From NCBI GenBank assembly GCA_030062745.1, contig CP099839.1:10932802-10996801 (forward strand): DNA of 64,000 nt, given 5' to 3'. The notes under the pieces were generated by a model that searched no databases, was not told the origin of the DNA, and saw nothing but the letters and a program-made list of their open reading frames with translations. Shown one piece after another: positions 4,640 to 64,000 of the stretch; position 1 is the first letter of the stretch; the number at the start of each line of letters is the position of its first letter. The stretch is from Capitulum mitella. Lineage: Eukaryota; Arthropoda; Thecostraca; Pollicipedomorpha; Pollicipedidae. The position numbers and the translations under genes were made by a program.

Positions 4640-6165
4640 ATACAATTTTATTTTTATTTATTGGACATAATCGGGTCACTCAACAGCAGGGCTATTCTCT
4701 GACCTTCGTCAACGCACATTGTCGCATTACAGGTCGTACGTCAATAAACCACTCTGCAGCCCTCCCCCTCCCCGTCGCATCGCAAATCCCCATCCTATAC
4801 GCAACGCGCGTGCCTCGAATAGCCATGTTTAACGAAAGATGTCGCGAATGCTAATCTTGGACTCACGCATTGACACGCTGGAAACAGACCTCGACTGATG
4901 ACCTCGTTTTGCTGCTGCACCGAGCGATATTGAAATGGTCCGCTTTCCGCGGTTGTTCCCGCACACAAGGCAGAATCGGTTGGTCCCACTGCCGGATATA
5001 ATGGACCACGCGCTCATGGTTGTACGCAAGAGCATAGTGCAGCACGGCAGGTGTTCCAGTGATTAGCACGCTGTGCATCAGGCAGAGATCGAAATGACAC
5101 ACACATTGAGGTGCGGCCAGCCAGCCTAATTGTTTGATGACACCTGATATGTGGTCATATTTTTGTCGACCTGAGAGCATCCTGGCAGTGAAGTTGAAGA
5201 CTTTCTGCAGTTTTGAGGTTTTTGTACCATTTGCGCTGTCATACACTTGCACGCAATAGCGGACATGGGAGAGCACAAGAGCATCAATAATCCTCGGCAG
5301 CACGCTTGGAGGCAGCGCGTGGTTTGCATTCAGAATACCTATCAGGATGCCTACGCATTTGTTTGTAACTTGAGCTATGCGACAGCCATATGACAAAGAT
5401 GGGTCCATGACAATGCCCGAGATTCCACACAGTTTCGGATCATTGTACCGACTGATCCATGAACACGATGGACGAATGTTCTCGAATCTGACTAAGTTGG
5501 CGACGGTCGCCACACAATAACATCTCGGTTTTGGCGGCATTCACTACCGTACCATGCTGGATAAACCATGTGCACGCTACGTCCAGCAACGACTCCGGTG
5601 ACTGCTTCATCTCCGTTAATCGGACGCGAGGGCCTGTGGTGGTCAGCTGCGCGTCGTCAGCGTAACGGACCACTGTGACGCGGAAGCCGTCGATGTGAGA
5701 TGGGATGAAGCATGAGATGTCGGTACTGAAGATGCCATACAGCAGCGGCCTCAGACATGATCCTTGAAATGTGCGAATGGTGCTGTTCTGAATTCCTGAC
5801 AGCGTCTGATCCACTCTCACGTTGCGCGTGTTCCTCCAGGTAACTTTTGATCCAACCAGTGGATGAAACCAGTGGATCAGTGGAACTTTGGAACTGCCGC
5901 AGCTTGGTGACCAACACTGACTGGTCTACTACGTCAAAACAGCGACCCAAATCAATGAAAGTCAGCAGCGTTTCTTCTGATTGGTCCATACCTTGTAATG
6001 TTTCACCAGCGATAGATGAAAGTGCCCCGCATGTTGAGTGATTTTCCATGAAGATATAGTTGTCAAAACTAAAAAGATGATCTTCTTTGAAGTATGAGAT
6101 AAGCTGATGCTGAGCCAGTTTCTCGGCTATTTTACAGATGGCTAGGACAATGGTAACTAACTGAA
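4640..6165 (-). pseudogene. Degraded non-LTR retrotransposon (CR1/L2-like LINE), reverse transcriptase and C-terminus
   Basis: Read on the minus strand from about 6165, the relic shows in order: a KIAEKLAQHQLISYF-like segment, LTFIDLGRCFDVVDQSVL (family DLSKAFDTVDH), WIKSYLEEHAQR (family WFxSYLxxRxQ), TFQGSCLRPLLYGIF (family GVPQGSxLGPLLF), then the RT active site RYADDAQL with YADD at 5653-5664, NAAKTEMLLCG, and finally LSHVRYCVQVYDS...LQKVFNFTARMLSGRQKYDHI. This is the standard motif order of CR1/L2/Jockey-type LINE ORF2. The segments lie in three different frames, so there are at least two frameshifts (near 5820 and near 5460). No endonuclease domain is visible upstream: the copy is 5'-truncated and dead. 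An A-rich ATAAA-type run (minus strand) near 4645-4665 may be its 3' end. Confidence 0.85.
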
Positions 6166-6169
6166 AACT

Positions 6170-7084
6170 TAAAGCTGTTGATGGATCGAAAAAACGATGT
6201 CATTCGTCTGGCAGTTTTGTGGTGTTGGAAACTGCAAAACACTTTCAGAGGTCAGAATCGTGAATGAGTCCGGAAATCGAACATGACATGAAAAGAGCAA
6301 TCCGGCCCGGTCTGCCGTCATGTCATCGAGACATTTACGGCTGCAAGAAGGTAGATGTGTCATCGGACATTAATGTCTGCTGTCTTCTGTCGGCTTTTCT
6401 TTTAGGGCCTTTCTTACTTTTCTGTGCTCGTCTGACGAAAACATTTTACATTTTGATCATCCGTCCGGCTTTAAGCGGGAAGCTTTATTTGCAACTGTAA
6501 CCGTTTTAAACGCCTAATTGTTTGGGCCTTTGAACTGAGAAAAAGCAGGTAGATAAAATGTAAAGAAAAATAAGGTAAGCTGCCAAAAGAAGAAATACAA
6601 AAAGCAAACGAGTACAGACATAGCCGAACAAATACCAGCATCTACCGCTGTTTCCTGTATCAGAAATGGGTGGGAGCCCAAAAAGGTTGTGACTAGTCTT
6701 CGAAATTTACTGCGAGAACCTCAGCAAGGGCCGTCGCAACTGCGACAGCATGCTGTTTTTGTTTGCAATAGTCGAAAAGATGCTTTTATACGAGTTTGAC
6801 AATATTACCTTACTGAGGTTTCATACAAACAAAAATGCCTCACTAAGGCAGCGATCCGAGCCGGTTTCATCTTCGCTACCCCGGAACCCACAAACCTGTA
6901 AAAAAATGGCCCATGGCGGATGTGTACTGGCATCGCTTAGAATCTGTACATCTTTCCATTCGTTTCTCATTCTTTTCTCGTTGTGGCCTCCTGCTACCTC
7001 CATCTTTCTTCCTTTTTCCTTATCTTGTTTCCCTTTCCTCTCCCCTCCCCTCCCCAGTTCCCCCCGTTATACTACGTTTTCGAT

Positions 7085-14337: not shown

Positions 14338-15339
14338 GGATGACGGAAACGTTTTTGAACTGTGAAATAAAACGCTGGATTTAACCCGTCCCAACCAAAT
14401 CTACAACATAAGATTGTTGTGACCATCACATTATTCAAACATTAAAAAGTGGACAAAAAAAAACGCACTGGAAAGTCCCGTTTACAATATCTGGCATTGC
14501 CATTTCAAAATTCGCAGTCTTCTTTGGCATTGCATTACAATATCATTTCACGCAGTCTTCATAAAATCACTTCCTTCGAAATTGCCGTCATTCGATTCGC
14601 ATGCAAGCGATGCGTTGAGGAGAGAAAAGCAGTGAAGTTATCAGGGCAACACGGACTATTGTGTGTATCCCATTGACCTAAGTTCATTGAGTCGCTTTCA
14701 ATTTGAACGTGTTTATCTTTTTTCTCAATCTTTGTTGACGTTTTCCTCTACACTATTATCAGATGTACTTAGTGGCCCCCGATGCATTCTCAGTTGGAAA
14801 TTCTAGCTAATGCGTCGTGGAAGAAGCCATTTTGTTTTCCGTTATCAGAAACAGTGATGGTACAGGATCAAGCCAAACACACAGCAATGGCCGGAATGGG
14901 ATTTCCACTCGAATGGGATACTGGGCTTTCCCGCAGATCATGCCTACCATATGTCACGACCTGGCTGAAGGCTCCGCACTGCCGCGATCCACAAAAGTTC
15001 CATCGCTTACCTCGAGTTGACTTGATCTCAGAAAAGGCAACGATACAATGGATACATCTGTATGGGTGTCTTTATCATTAGGTATCGTACACACATATCT
15101 GCCGGTATCTTTAGGAAAACTTTTGACTGAATGAGACCCTAATTCACCTATTTTTTCACCAGGTTGTGCGTTCCATGGTATGATGTGTAATGACAAAAGA
15201 GATATGAACCGCAGGCATATCCCAGCTGTGTTTGCAACCAAGAACTTCATGGGTTGGATCGCAGACCAAGGCCAGTTTCACCAGCGGTCTGTTACACTGC
15301 ATATTGTAAGGTCGTCGCTTGAGAATAAACAAGCTTAAG

Positions 15340-40300: not shown

Positions 40301-42039
40301 ACGTCACTCGGTGACATCATAACCTGGTTAAATATCACCTTACAGCAGCATCTAAATGAGCAAGCATGCATCTGAAACAACTACGTGATGGCCTGACATG
40401 CCTCCCAGAAACGCCTCTCCTGCAGCCGCTCTTAATGCATGCTGGATGTTCAAATTTTGACATAACGTGTAAAAAGAAACCGCATATATTCCTACGAATG
40501 CGTAGAGTCACCAAAGTTCAAAACGTGGTATCGCAAACGGCTTGGCTTTGGTGCCACAAAAACATGAGTGGCCGAACGCCCCCTCCCCCCACGGGATCAG
40601 AACATCCGCATTTGACCGACCAGTCCTGTTGGAAAATGAGATCCGTGGGAATGTCTTTGCACATCCCTTTTTAGGTACGGGGACACGAGCGCACGTAAAA
40701 ACTGCACGGCTGGTCTCTTAATCACCCTCTTAACTCATCGCGATCAGTGTGCATTGTTAAATATTGTTTGGATCACCGCAAGCGCTAGGCGAGAAGTCAT
40801 GGAAACTTCTGTAGCCATCTAACGCCACGCCCACTGTCTCAAAGTACAAAAGAACATTAAATGTGTCTCAAAAAGTCCTAACGTTGATGCGCCAAACGTT
40901 TTTTAGGGCTTTTCCATGCGACGGCAGAATGAGCTTATCACTATATTTTTTTCCTTTAACTTGTGGAGCTTTTGCATCTTTCGCCCGGTCCTACGCCCAT
41001 TGCGAGATACCACAATCGAGAACAGCGATGGTCAGGAAAGTTTTCGTAGTAAAGAAATTGCAAGTGGGAACTTGCGAAAAAACAGGCAGGTTTTTGAAAT
41101 GCTTAACTTGTGTCTAGGATCCATTGTATTTTTATCCGAGTTGATTTTAAGAAACACCTTAACAGACGACAGTGGCGTTCACAATTCCTGGTGAATTTTT
41201 ATGTACTGTAAAAAATTAAATCAGATGCACTTTTAAGACCTGCTGTCTGACAACACGGAGACGCGTTGATAATAAACAAGAGACCAGCGTTCTTTTCGAT
41301 GTATGTGAGATACCACATTTCATGAGCATATGATTCTTTGAACGTTGATGAACAACTGTCTCGGGGTTTTGTGTCTCGGACGTCAGCATCGTTTTGGTTA
41401 TCACTCACGTTAAGCTAAGTCACAAAAGTTTTCCTGAATCAAACCTCATTACTTTTCACAATAGCAAACGGCATTGTGGTAGGCGTCTATTGCATTAGAA
41501 AACACACCGTTGCGTTGAAAAATTATGGTTCCAGCGATGCTACCAGAATGCAGAATCACAGTAATCTCCGTCCAGTACATGTCCTAAGCCTTGGCCAGTT
41601 CTGTTATGGAGCGGAGATTTAAAAAGCAAAAGATGGTTTCTGTTGAAAGTAAAGCCAACTTTCTTAACTCTATGTAGTGTTTCTATTCATATCCTATAGG
41701 TGACAGGTGATGGTGATGCTGGCGCCAAGTGATGAAAGCGTATGAAAGCCCAGACATATGGAAGTTCCAAATGTTTGCCCATCCTGAAAATGGGCTAAAT
41801 CCCCGAAAAACCGCAAAATAGACAGTCATCTAGGTGGACATAGATAGAGGACACCTGTGAGAGTCAAGCCGGCATGACCTGAGAAGACGACGCGTGAACG
41901 CCGCTATCTCGCGAACGAAGGCTGCCGAAGCGTTATCTCGCCTCTCGGCTGCGATGAGAGCTCCTTAGCCACGTAATCTCCGCCCGGGTTTTGGCCATTC
42001 ACCAGCTTCTTCTCTTCCTTCTCTCCTGTGCCCTCTTCA
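34336..42039. other. 7.7-kb stretch with no gene recognised
   Basis: AT-leaning, non-CpG-rich sequence. The longest frames (for example 122 codons on the minus strand at 38760-39128) show no domain. Slightly GC-rich patches near 35.4 kb are not distinctive. Confidence 0.55.
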
Positions 42040-42760
42040 TCCGGGGATCTGGCGCTGCAGCTCCGCGCCGCCACTCGCCGGACGGCGGCATTTCCTGCGC
42101 GGACCCGTATTGATTGCGCCCCGCCTCCGTTCGGCCGGCATTAGACTGCTTTACATATCTAACTGCGCATCTCGATTCGGCGTCATAGCTGTGCTATCTC
42201 AATAAAATGGGCCGATCTCGGCCGGACGGGGCGGAGGGCGCCGGCCGGCCCGCTCCGGTCTGCAATCAGCCGGACCAGCCATCGCCCTCCTCCCGGCCGG
42301 CCGGCCAGCGCCGCCAGGCAGCGGCCCTCTGCCGGCCGCCGCGCCGCCTGCTCTTCTTAATAAACAAACCGCCGCCCATCAGCCATATTCTTCTCCTGAT
42401 GTCTGGCGCGCACATTAGTACACTGAGGGCGATCCCGTTGCCCGGTATTGACTGGGCAGATAAACGCCACATGATTGGCGCATTTATAAAATACCAGCCA
42501 ATCAAGTTGGCTTATCGCGCGATTGCCGGCCTGTGATTGGCTGGCAGCCGGGCCGGCGGTGCCGCGGCCGGCGGGATGGTCCGATAAGCAGATAGTTGCA
42601 GTCGCAGGGAGCGGCGGCCCGATAACGGCCGCCTGTTAAGTGTGATAACGCGCCGACAAAAACCAACGCGCAGATAACGCAGGCGAATCGCAGCCACAGG
42701 TGAGCTTCGGGCGGCCTCGCTCTCCCGCGCCGAGCGGGGATCGGGCCGGCGCCGCCGCGT
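42040..42760 (+). promoter_or_regulatory. CpG-rich block with dense GATA motifs, CCAAT and TATA-like elements and a splice donor: candidate distal promoter/noncoding first exon or enhancer
   Basis: GATAA or its complement occurs at 42459, 42512 (reverse), 42583, 42621, 42644 and 42673, with a further GATA at 42591: seven motifs in about 220 bp. CCAAT-type motifs (ATTGG/CCAAT) occur near 42473, 42498 and 42536, and a TATA-like TTTATAAAAT lies at 42483-42492. A good splice donor, CAG|GTGAGC, has its GT at 42700. This fits a small untranslated first exon (about 42515-42699) joining the GATA gene 12 kb downstream; vertebrate GATA2/GATA3 are known to use alternative noncoding first exons and GATA autoregulation. 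No reading frame here resembles a protein. It could equally be an enhancer; the promoter reading is inference. Confidence 0.45.
42515..42699 (+). other. Hypothetical noncoding first exon ending at CAG|GTGAGC
   Basis: Inferred from a TATA-like element about 25-30 bp upstream of the left edge and a consensus donor at the right edge. The left end is only a projection. No transcript evidence is available. Confidence 0.25.
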
Positions 42761-53170: not shown

Positions 53171-54059
53171 CAACACCGCACAGGCACTTCAGAACTCAAA
53201 ACGCCTCAGTTTCAACACAAAAAGATAAGAATGCAGCTATTGAGGGTGCTCGTTTTGTATTCAGTTTATTACTAATGTTTCCAAAATGTGATTTAACGGC
53301 TCTGGAGCAGAAATATAAGTCGAGTAACTCATCTGGGCCATTGGATGCCCCTGTACATCCCGCATTTCTTCCAATTATAAGCAGAAATGAATTAATCTGT
53401 TTTGATAACAGTATGCAAGTGTGTGAATTGTGCTTTTTATGCTTAAAGTAAATGCAGCAATATCCAAAAACATTTGTCAATGCTGTTATTAGGTATATCT
53501 AAGCAATGATATTACAAATTATAAGACATGCATGAGGAAATACGTTCAGAGGAAATATCATTCATGCGCACATATTGACTTACACTTGACATTGCATTTT
53601 GTATTACAGCTGGCACTTTTGTCCCACAGAACACTTCAAAAACCTTCTTACTTGCTCGTATAGGTGTTCGGTCGCGTGGTAAAGTTGTATATTTACCAGC
53701 TGAATTTTTAGATACTTTCGCGAGAAGGCGCTAAATTTTAATCCATTAGCGGTGAAGTTTGTAAACCACATTTTTAAACTGGCGCCCATGATAAAAACGA
53801 TATCTTCGGACGCCCCTTAAGTCATTGGCCTGGTGGCTGGCTGTTTTGTTCAGCGTTGCGGACGTTGTACAAAGATTCAAGTTTGATTTTAGGACGATAT
53901 TGTTCATTTGGTTTCAAGATGTCCGTTGACTCAAAGGACAGGCTTCTTAGACCAATGACGAAAGCCCCACCTCAGGTGTTCCACAGCCAGCTTCTAAGCA
54001 GCTGTAGCTTAAAAACATTTCAGAAATCCCTTATCGGAAAATAACATCGTCCCCAACGA
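53171..54059. other. No gene recognised, immediate upstream flank of the GATA promoter region
   Basis: A 142-codon + frame at 53023-53451 straddles the end of the long repeat and lacks any known motif. Otherwise neutral DNA. Confidence 0.5.
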
Positions 54060-54646
54060 GACACGTAAATCTTCGCTCCGGGGTTTGGCCGCTCAGTTCA
54101 AGGATGTGGCAACAGATGGCGCTACCGGTCCGATGAAGCTCCGCCCGCCGCCTCGCCGCCGTCGGGCCAGCGATGGTAGTTGGCTCCCGGCCTTTGCAGC
54201 GGTTGGCGGTTGTCGAGACGGTTTTTCTCCGCTCGGTGTGAGGTGATACGACAGATAGACGGTGATTTTTGCGGATCGGCGGTGTGACACAAACTTGGCT
54301 AAATGGTGGAACAGCGGAATTTCACGTCGACGCGGCCGACATAACTTCACGCCGAATTTCCAGGTACCCAAAACAAATTATCCTATTTTGAATCGCCATC
54401 AGCTGAATCCAAAGCCCTGTAAGCATGTCGTCAGCGGCCACGTCGTTGTCCGGAGTCGGCTGCGGCGGTGCGTGGCCGGAGCGCGGGCCGCGTGGCCGCG
54501 CCGCCGTCTGCGCCGCCAGGCCGCCGGGGGCCGGTTTTGCCGGTCGGACGGCCGGCCGCCCGCTGACACGCACGTGCCGGCCTCGGTTCCAGGGCCGCCG
54601 CCGCCGCCGCGACCTGCCGTGACCGGGTCGCCAGCGGGCGCCAGCG
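54060..54646 (+). promoter_or_regulatory. 5' flank / probable 5' UTR of GATA coding exon 1
   Basis: Composition shifts from neutral to strongly CpG-rich between about 54.1 and 54.43 kb and stays so into the exon, as expected for a CpG-rich promoter or leader. There is no TATA box. TTATC motifs lie near 54030 and 54286. Upstream ATGs exist at 54262 (a frame that stays open across the whole coding exon, out of phase) and at 54425 (same phase as the GATA frame, but ending at the TGA 54620-54622). The transcription start and any upstream splice acceptor cannot be fixed from sequence; TTTGCAG at about 54200 is one candidate acceptor. Confidence 0.4.
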
Positions 54647-54896
54647 ATGGCCAGCGACTCCGTTGGCCTGCAGCCGCCGGCCGGCGGCGAGGGCTCCCAG
54701 CCGTTGCCGGCGCACCGCGCGTGGTACGAGGCGCAACGTTCGGCCGGCATGGGCGCCATGGACGCCGGCGGCGCCATCCCGCCCGAGGACATGGAGATGT
54801 TCTTCCCGTCCATCGACGGCTCCGGCAACCGCGGCCGCTACTACGGCGCGTCGCACTCTTCGGCCGCGTACCCGGCGCACACGGCCGACTGGAGCT
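54647..54896 (+). CDS. GATA2/3 (grn): GATA1/2/3-class (grain-like) transcription factor, coding exon 1
   Basis: First coding exon, residues 1-83 plus one base of codon 84, of a nuclear transcription factor expected to bind WGATAR sites through two C4 zinc fingers that lie beyond this window. Residues 44-61 (IPPEDMEMFF...IDGSGN) match the conserved N-terminal block of vertebrate GATA2/GATA3, where a PP/PE-acidic-FF(N)xxD.xGN pattern is followed by a Tyr-rich stretch (here YYG at 65-67, YPAH at 75-78). The ATG has G at -3 and G at +4, and an in-frame TGA at 54620-54622 excludes an N-terminal extension. The exon ends T|GTGAGT, phase 1, and joins exon 2 in frame to give Ser-Arg-Met. Met35 and Met38 are possible internal starts. 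The exon is very GC-rich, so all frames are fairly open; recognition rests on the motif and the splice-phase match. Confidence 0.9.
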
Positions 54897-54917
54897 GTGA
54901 GTACCGTGAGCTGTGAG

Positions 54918-62115: not shown

Positions 62116-62373
62116 CGCGAATGTCGGCCGCCAGCGGGCAGATGTACCGCTCGCACCTGCCGACGTACCCGTGGATCGGCGACAAGGCGATGATGCCGCC
62201 GGCCGCCGCCGCCTGGTGCTCGCCGTTCGCCAAGGCGCAGAGCCCCGGCATCCAGACGTCGATCGCGCACTCCAGCCCGCACCTCTTCCACTTCCCGCCG
62301 ACGCCGCCCAAGGACGGCACGCCCGAGACGTCGTCGGCGCCGACGGCCGCCTCGTCGAGCGTGGCGTCGGCGT

Positions 62374-62404
<31 letters not shown>

Positions 62405-62691
62405 CGTGGCCGGCATGTCGTCCGACTACGGCCAGCACCCGTGCGGCCAGCTGCTGGCCGCGCCCGACGGGCTCGACATCAAGCCGTCGCTCATCCACGG
62501 CCTGTCGAAGCAGCGCGAAGGTAGCGGCCCGCAGCCCGAGCTGTCCGCCGCGCCGTACCAGTACCCGGCGGCCTCGGCGGCCGGCGAGTACGCGCCGGCC
62601 GCCGCCGTCGCCGGGTACGGCTTCCACCCCAGTGCGTTCGCCGCCAAAAGCGTGTCGCCGCGGCCCAAGGCCAAGGCCAGGTCGTCCGCCG
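62116..62691 (+). CDS. GATA2/3 (grn): GATA1/2/3-class transcription factor, coding exon 2 (activation region up to the zinc fingers)
   Basis: Second coding exon, residues 84-275 plus one base of codon 276. It starts after TTCCCGCAG and ends G|GTAAGC, phase 1. Blocks diagnostic of the GATA1/2/3 class appear in the expected order: GQMYR..LP..PWIGDK (91-107; GATA2/3 have QxCRPxLL..PWLDGGK), WCSPFAK (117-123; GATA3 SPWNLSPFSK), SPHLFHFPPTPPKD (137-150; the class signature, not found in GATA4/5/6 or pannier), an Ala10 run at 171-180, GYGFHPSAF about 40 residues before the end, and RPKAKARSSA at the end. The next family residues are EGRECVNCG, and the split G codon at the donor fits GAA (Glu). This region carries transactivation functions in the family. 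The zinc fingers are not within the window. The roughly 275 residues before the fingers are close to GATA2/3 length. Confidence 0.93.
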
Positions 62692-64000
62692 GTAAGCCCG
62701 CGACGCGCGCGCCGCTGTCGGCCGCACGGAGCCCGGTGGTGGAGCACCCGCCCGCGGGACCGGACTAACCAGCACGCCCGGACTAACACGTGCCTGCTGT
62801 ACAGCGCACTGACCACTGAGTCCCTGGGCGGCGAGCCCCAACAGCGTCGGCGTCCGAGCCGCGGCCGGCTGCGTGATATCATTCCTGCCTGCGCCGTCTC
62901 CGGTCGTAGCCGGGTACGAAACATGGCCGGCCGGCGCGGCCGCCTCGCGAGCACCGCCCTCTCGCCGCGCTGACCTGTCAGCACTCCCAGCGCTCAGACC
63001 GCGGGATGGGCTGGTTATTGCCCGAAATTTCTTATCCGTGCAATCCGCCAGACGGGCACGGAGAACGGGACACGCGACGGGTTCGTGAGGGGCGGGCTGC
63101 GGCGGGCACGTGGGAGGAGGAGCCGAGGCCAGGCGGCCGCGCCCGGCGCCGCCTCGGTGGTCCAGCTGGCTCGTGTATCATGTCCGGAACGCAGCCGCCG
63201 CGTGCACTGTTTACCTTCCGTGTCGGACGCGGCGCCGCCGTGCGACCGCTGCCGCCAAAAATACCCGACACGGGGACCTCGGCAGAGAGCAGAGAGCAGA
63301 GAGCGGGACCGGGGCGAGGCCGGGACCATTGGCTTCCGTGCCGGCAGGAACCGGGCGCCCGCCCTGTCCTTCCGCCGAGCCTTCTTCGGCGCGCCGTTCC
63401 CAGGATTCGTGACCGCCTTCCGCCGCACCCGCCGCGTTCTCGCACTGTCGGCGTTCGCGGCGCACTCTCGGCGGTCGCGGCGCGGTAGCGGCACCGGCCG
63501 GCGGCGGCGCCTTTGATGCAGCCGGCGCGGCCGCTCGCCGCCAATGATCCCCACTTAGGCCCGGGCCGAGGGGCGATCGCGTGCGCCGCCTCTGAGGCCG
63601 CAATCCGGACAGCTTCTCGCCGCTGGCCCGCCCCGCCCCGTCGGCGCACTCCCACGTGCGTGAACCGGGCCAGCAGGGGGCTGCTGACCGCCGACCTGGG
63701 GAGCCCGAGCGACTCCTGGGGGCGGCCGACGCTCCGCACCCCGCGCAGAATGCGCCGGCCCCGCCCAGTCATTTCAGCCAGCGCGGGCGCCGGGCGCACC
63801 GTGTAATTATCGGCGGTTGTCGCCCGTGGGCCGCCGCCAGGGTCGGTAACTAATGAGTCGACAGATGACGGCCTCTTGATGGATCGCGCCGGACCTTTAA
63901 CAACTCGCAGAAAGGTTTCTCTCTGCCGCGGTGTTCGGGGTGATCAGGTTTCGCCGGTTTAACGGCAGGGAGGGCACGGTGGGACGGGTCGCGGACGTGC
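62692..64000 (+). other. Start of intron 2 of the GATA gene, GC-rich, runs off the window
   Basis: Begins with a strong donor (GTAAGC). No zinc-finger coding sequence (CVNCGA... / CNACGL...) is present in any frame up to 64000, so the finger exons lie further right. The sequence is extremely CpG-rich, which leaves all six frames open over long stretches; those frames have no recognisable domains. An ATTATC motif lies near 63806. Confidence 0.8.

Follow-up and report, generated by a model that had tools for sequence, protein, structure and literature searches.

Concerning the promoters of GATA-class genes, it is known that the first exon belonging to the distal (1S) promoter of vertebrate GATA2 is untranslated, that the GATA-2 promoter of Xenopus is under CCAAT-box control and that homotypic clusters of GATA sites are a common element of enhancer grammar. 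The distal 1S and the proximal 1G promoter of vertebrate GATA2 are both activated by GATA2 through GATA elements (PMC6961892, PMC4556642), the switch sites of this gene lie kilobases away (-77, -3.9, -2.8, -1.8 and +9.5) and, as one legend indicates, the 1S promoter itself may hold a functional GATA element (PMC6961892). Genes of the GATA1/2/3 class carry two coding exons with class motifs before the zinc fingers (PMC2857956), and one survey of arthropod genomes found a single GATA1/2/3 gene in all of them (PMC2383905). The fly gene of this class, Drosophila grain, is a marker of the midgut primordium and is no longer expressed in serpent mutants, in which no gut develops; the available parts of these papers make no mention of an autoregulated distal promoter in grain (PMC2383905, PMC8844375, PMC8530363). 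No title among the literature matches listed concerns a GATA distal promoter in invertebrates, which is no proof of its absence from print.

In the current study, a prediction made for a 64 kb stretch of Capitulum mitella DNA (the window, meaning the whole stretch that was analysed) was followed up by computational analysis. The original prediction held that a cluster of GATA motifs fits an autoregulated distal promoter with an untranslated first exon, approximately 12 kb upstream of a GATA gene. This gene is of the GATA1/2/3 class, with its ATG at 54647 and with coding exons that are intact as far as read. Coding exon A (54647..54896, plus strand, donor GT at 54897) and coding exon B (62116..62691, plus strand, donor GT at 62692) have matching phases, an in-frame stop precedes the start codon, and both exons together carry the stretches WYE, PPEDMEMFF and FPPTPPKD, which we take to resemble motifs of vertebrate GATA2. 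In exons A and B a Pfam scan detected no GATA domain, in line with their position outside the finger region, and gave a single below-cut-off match (Adeno_PIX) over an alanine run in exon B. The zinc-finger exons follow past the end of the window, namely two N-finger exons (L002:397-542 and 590-735), the C-finger exon (L002:7377-7502) and a lysine-rich 3' exon, VNRPITMKKDGIQTRNRK, at approximately L004:772; the dual GATA fingers lie in separate exons, PF00320 scoring above cut-off at both the N- and the C-finger exons. Published descriptions of GATA1/2/3 genes include two 5' coding exons (PMC2857956), of which exons A and B are the counterparts here. The upstream 50 kb had been called geneless, a description which overlooked a broken retrotransposon reverse transcriptase on the minus strand at 4.9-6.2 kb (4863-6199), the pieces of which are in different frames and, in two of three, match RVT_1 at approximately 1e-6, just under the Pfam cut-off; the Pfam scan of the window covered ten open stretches only, the two GATA exons included.

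The proposed distal promoter and first exon occupy 42440..42710 on the plus strand, the distance from the TATA box at 42485 to the ATG being 12.2 kb, and every motif of the original prediction (GATAA, GATAG, CCAAT, the TATA-like motif and CAG/GTGAGC) was recovered where it had been placed. Six GATAA motifs and one GATAG are spread over 219 bp (42459-42677), with GATAA on the plus strand at 42459, 42583, 42621, 42644 and 42673 and on the minus strand at 42512. The first site (42459..42463) lies inside GGCAGATAA, the second (42512..42516) reads TTATC, the third forms with a GATAG at 42591 the double site GATAAGCAGATAG (42583..42595, plus strand), and the last three read GATAAC and fall within the candidate first exon (42621..42677, plus strand). 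Motif scanning also identified three NF-Y-type CCAAT sites, i.e. TGATTGGC at 42472..42479 (minus strand, CCAAT at 42474), GCCAATCA at 42497..42504 (plus strand, CCAAT at 42498) and a second TGATTGGC at 42534..42541 (minus strand, CCAAT at 42536); with both strands counted, these are the only copies of the 8-mer in the 64 kb, all inside 42472-42541. The first two stand head to head and bracket the TATA box TATAAAA (42485..42491, plus strand), contained in TTTATAAAAT at 42483, and the TATA box sits upstream of two of the three CCAAT boxes. Head-to-head pairs of TGATTGGC and GCCAATCA at a spacing of 5-35 bp occur at 12 places in the genome versus one for the reversed control pattern; part of these pairs look like plain palindromes, so this excess need not be regulatory. 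The GC content of the element is 0.60, and its CpG richness does not discriminate since the entire window already has a CpG o/e of 1.07.

Immediately downstream of the cluster, the splice donor CAG/GTGAGC (42697..42705, plus strand, GT at 42700) ranked 5th of the 3637 plus-strand GT dinucleotides of the window when scored with a weight matrix of splice-site frequencies. The initiator-like TGCAGT at 42597..42602 (plus strand), with a candidate start at the A of 42600, is a weak signal, being one of three matches in 42480-42710 to a loose consensus. The candidate first exon 42600-42699 contains no ATG, as would suit an untranslated exon; a start near 42514 would leave one ATG (42576) in the leader. 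On the acceptor side, the candidate for an exon from 54593 (54593..54646, plus strand) is, among seven acceptors tested before 54647, the only one to leave no ATG in the leader, and it ranked 213 of 3362 compared with 122 for the acceptor of exon B; better-scoring acceptors at 53610-53664, 54200 and 54364 would put between one and nine ATGs into the leader, the best of them (53664) having rank 19. A divergent transcript was considered and rejected, as the only minus-strand donor above 1 bit in 42000-42720 is a weak one at 42002 (2.93 bits).

A Pfam GATA profile search of the species' own genome (477 Mb in 16 contigs) yielded 11 matches, comprising three in the gene described above, an N-/C-finger pair in a second gene, five on C3 and one on C11. 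The second GATA1/2/3-class gene lies on the same contig (C1:11133757-11148492, minus strand), its finger pair being at 11.134-11.139 Mb; the two genes converge, and their start codons are 161 kb apart. Since the two exons A share 45% protein identity over residues 16-83 and the two exons B 47% identity over 60 residues, the second gene is a diverged duplicate and no allele. Alignment of the DNA preceding exon A in both genes gave one strong alignment (60.7% over 366 columns), which is exon A with approximately 100 bp before it; as the remaining rows were short and weak, conserved non-coding DNA ahead of exon A was rejected.

The finger exons of these genes display further features. The first gene possesses a tandem pair of complete N-finger exons (64397-64542 and 64590-64735 in window coordinates), each of 146 nt with its own acceptor and GTGAGT donor, separated by 47 nt and differing at five residues. 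Because 146 is not a multiple of three, so that inclusion of both would shift the frame, and because an intron of 47 nt is very short, the splicing of these exons is predicted to be mutually exclusive. In Drosophila serpent, which belongs to the other GATA class, the duplicate of the N-finger exon no longer encodes a finger (PMC8844375). The exon at L002:397-542 is identical at 142 of 146 nt to the N-finger exon of the second gene (L032; finger match C1:11138845-11138946, minus strand), with three differences among 48 third positions, and at 126 of 146 nt to its own tandem neighbour L002:590-735, while the C-finger exons of the two genes agree at 112 of 124 nt. The near-identity of the N-finger exons despite 45% protein identity in exon A suggests that an exon passed from one copy to the other, by transfer or by gene conversion; the second gene has just one N-finger match in the genome search, and the 800 bp examined there contain no other. 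The C-finger exon of either copy stops straight after YYKLHN (L002:7377-7502, 42 residues in the first gene; L033), and the NRPITMKK part occupies an exon of its own (approximately L004:772 in the first gene). For the ancestral C-finger exon a length of about 54 residues has been described (PMC2383905), and compared with it the position of the C-finger intron seems to have shifted in both copies. The tandem N-finger exons may interest specialists more than the promoter-like element does.

The 12.7 kb of DNA examined upstream of the second gene (L030, L031) includes, approximately 10.5 kb before the start codon, a GC-rich stretch in which a TATA box (C1:11159022) accompanies a cluster of GATA motifs; here TTATC, GATAG, GATAAC and further GATA motifs surround CCTATAAAAACAGG, and 217 bp hold four GATAA. 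About 1 kb upstream of this TATA element lies a separate cluster (L031 8819-9009, minus strand) of five GATAA in approximately 190 bp, three TTATC being nearly adjacent. Windows of 220 bp with a GC content of at least 0.55 were compared, low-complexity windows being dropped and 20 random and eight neighbouring 10-kb stretches serving as controls. The maximum GATAA count per window is six in the first element, five (in the separate cluster) over the 10 kb preceding the second gene, and at most two in all 20 random and all eight neighbouring stretches; for plain GATA, the maximum is seven in the first element, seven in the second TATA element and at most five in the 28 controls. Without the GC condition the plain GATA count is uninformative alone, because random or neighbouring stretches then reach 10 and the window elsewhere, at 15042, reaches eight. 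When GC-rich 300-bp tiles were searched for at least five GATA motifs plus a TATA box, using thresholds fixed after both elements had been viewed, no tile qualified among the 3644 from the 28 other stretches, against seven of 721 in the window (all overlapping 42440-42710), six of 91 in L031, which share a single location, and none of 54 in L030. The pattern GGCAGATAAN{5,25}TATAAAA, that is GGCAGATAA followed after 5-25 bp by TATAAAA, has nine matches in the 477 Mb genome (reversed control, five), two of which are the two GATA-gene elements; having been picked after seeing both sequences, it illustrates the likeness and is no test of it.

Each of the two genes thus has an element of this kind at a comparable distance, and the two distal elements are approximately 184 kb apart. 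The second element is without the CCAAT triplet, and the donors there (near C1:11158555) are weaker and about 470 bp off. Homology of the whole elements was rejected, since their alignment score does not rise above that of shuffles (equalled by 101 of 400, or by 82 of 400 when the partner sequence is shuffled instead) and is equally high in 68 of 750 GC-matched tiles. Descent of both elements from one ancestral promoter is possible. The presence of a comparable element at both genes suggests that GATA proteins contribute to switching on GATA genes here, as in vertebrates.

The GATA motif excess at 42440-42710 holds up against chance. The expectation of well under one GATAA is borne out by local dinucleotide shuffles of the 271 bp, which gave a mean of 0.46, and none of 5000 reached six; three CCAAT motifs were reached by 267 of the 5000, making the CCAAT count weak evidence by itself. 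In favour of a chance cluster within a GC-rich patch, a plain Poisson score places GATAA no higher than 19th among 510 pentamer classes (of the 18 that outrank it, 12 are AT-only or CG-only words and six are mixed), and unmasked whole-window block shuffles produce a six-site cluster as tight in 10 of 300 cases; the cluster had, moreover, originally been chosen by eye. Against this, masking of tandem repeats reduces the figure for whole-window shuffles to 3 of 1000, and shuffle calibration leaves GATAA among five of 512 pentamer classes lying beyond all 250 shuffles, the other four being C/G-only. When the numbers of GATAA and CCAAT motifs per 250 bp are multiplied, one of 300 shuffles attains the value observed here. 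The densest 219 bp of each of 20 random 10-kb genome stretches holds two GATAA in 14 cases, three in four and four in two, that of the eight 10-kb stretches adjoining the window holds two to four, and none of the 28 exceeds four. These shuffles and stretches, together with the replicate element at the second gene, make chance a very improbable explanation.

Functional readings were weighed next, a cis-regulatory role of 42440-42710 being regarded as very probable on the sequence evidence. The cluster might be a GATA-responsive enhancer that loops to a promoter beside exon A, the TATA box and the donor being incidental; homotypic GATA clusters are common in enhancers, a GC-rich stretch at 54.1-54.9 kb with initiator-like motifs lies right before exon A, and the element as a whole lacks sequence conservation relative to that of the second gene. 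Yet a TATA box is rare in GC-rich sequence (4 of 364 tiles of 250 bp, one strand) and is nonetheless present in both elements, the CCAAT triplet and the top-ranked donor favour a promoter, and no E-box-GATA composite occurs inside 42440-42710, unlike the +9.9 kb GATA2 enhancer, at which an E-box and a GATA site were both tested (PMC4556642). We judge an enhancer unlikely. The element could instead serve a separate transcript such as a non-coding RNA, given that the link from the donor at 42700 to exon A is a predicted one and that the next 12 kb have room for another exon. This appears still less likely, and quite improbable, as the three open frames at 42.2-43.1 kb have no Pfam match (E up to 1), the window has no Rfam match above gathering score and an element of this type also lies about as far upstream of the second GATA gene. 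On the same Pfam and Rfam results coding sequence and structured RNA were rejected as identities of the element, as was a repeat, the 271 bp being a single match in the species' own genome (E up to 0.001).

The element is thus probably a GATA-responsive distal promoter of the GATA1/2/3 gene, with a predicted spliced untranslated first exon. The strong donor straight after the cluster, the ATG-free exon and the TATA box at both genes weigh in favour of a promoter, while the order of TATA and CCAAT, which is odd for a single start, and the fact that no acceptor before 54647 is outstanding weigh against it. In such a promoter, transcription of the gene with its ATG at 54647 would start inside 42440-42710, at one of two candidate positions: near 42514, approximately 30 bp past the TATA box, or the initiator-like CA at 42600, which follows the last CCAAT site by about 62 bp. 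A short untranslated exon ending at 42699 would be spliced to the start-codon exon some 12 kb on. Relative to the A at 42600, the CCAAT centres lie at about -62, -100 and -124, distances within the usual range for NF-Y, which may bind these sites, keep the promoter open and set the start. GATA proteins would occupy the sites at and near the start, driving or maintaining expression; they might be encoded by the gene itself, by the second copy or by a gene of the GATA4/5/6 class. Autoregulation by the gene's own product is plausible, at a lower confidence than the promoter itself. More speculatively, one may picture two convergent genes, each with a GATA-loaded TATA promoter that predates the duplication, whose products drive themselves and each other, the first gene also making N-finger isoforms; this composite scenario is offered as a tentative and rather doubtful one.

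Should the promoter reading be correct, distal promoters driven by GATA proteins would, in genes of the GATA1/2/3 class, be no vertebrate speciality, GATA self-activation would be tied to the core promoter as well as to far enhancers, and the two diverged copies would constitute a natural test of which promoter parts are selected, namely the GATA sites and the TATA box and not the CCAAT array.

With respect to known systems, the CCAAT sites recall those of the Xenopus GATA-2 promoter, from which this element differs in having three putative sites, two of them head to head around the TATA box; CCAAT control of the Xenopus promoter was found in none of the literature matches listed. The gene shares its orthology class (GATA1/2/3) with Drosophila grain, and differs from the single copy in the arthropods studied in being present as two copies. 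The comparison with vertebrate GATA2/3 made in the original prediction stands as a likeness of design. Like GATA2 1S, which is a distal CpG-rich promoter (PMC6961892, PMC4556642, PMC2936534), the element would be a distal promoter with its own first exon and GATA responsiveness, as predicted from its sequence signals; unlike the named GATA2 switch sites, its GATA sites lie inside the putative core promoter and the candidate first exon. By its design, the Capitulum mitella element is likely, if not proven, to be a member of the GATA2 1S-type kind of distal promoter.
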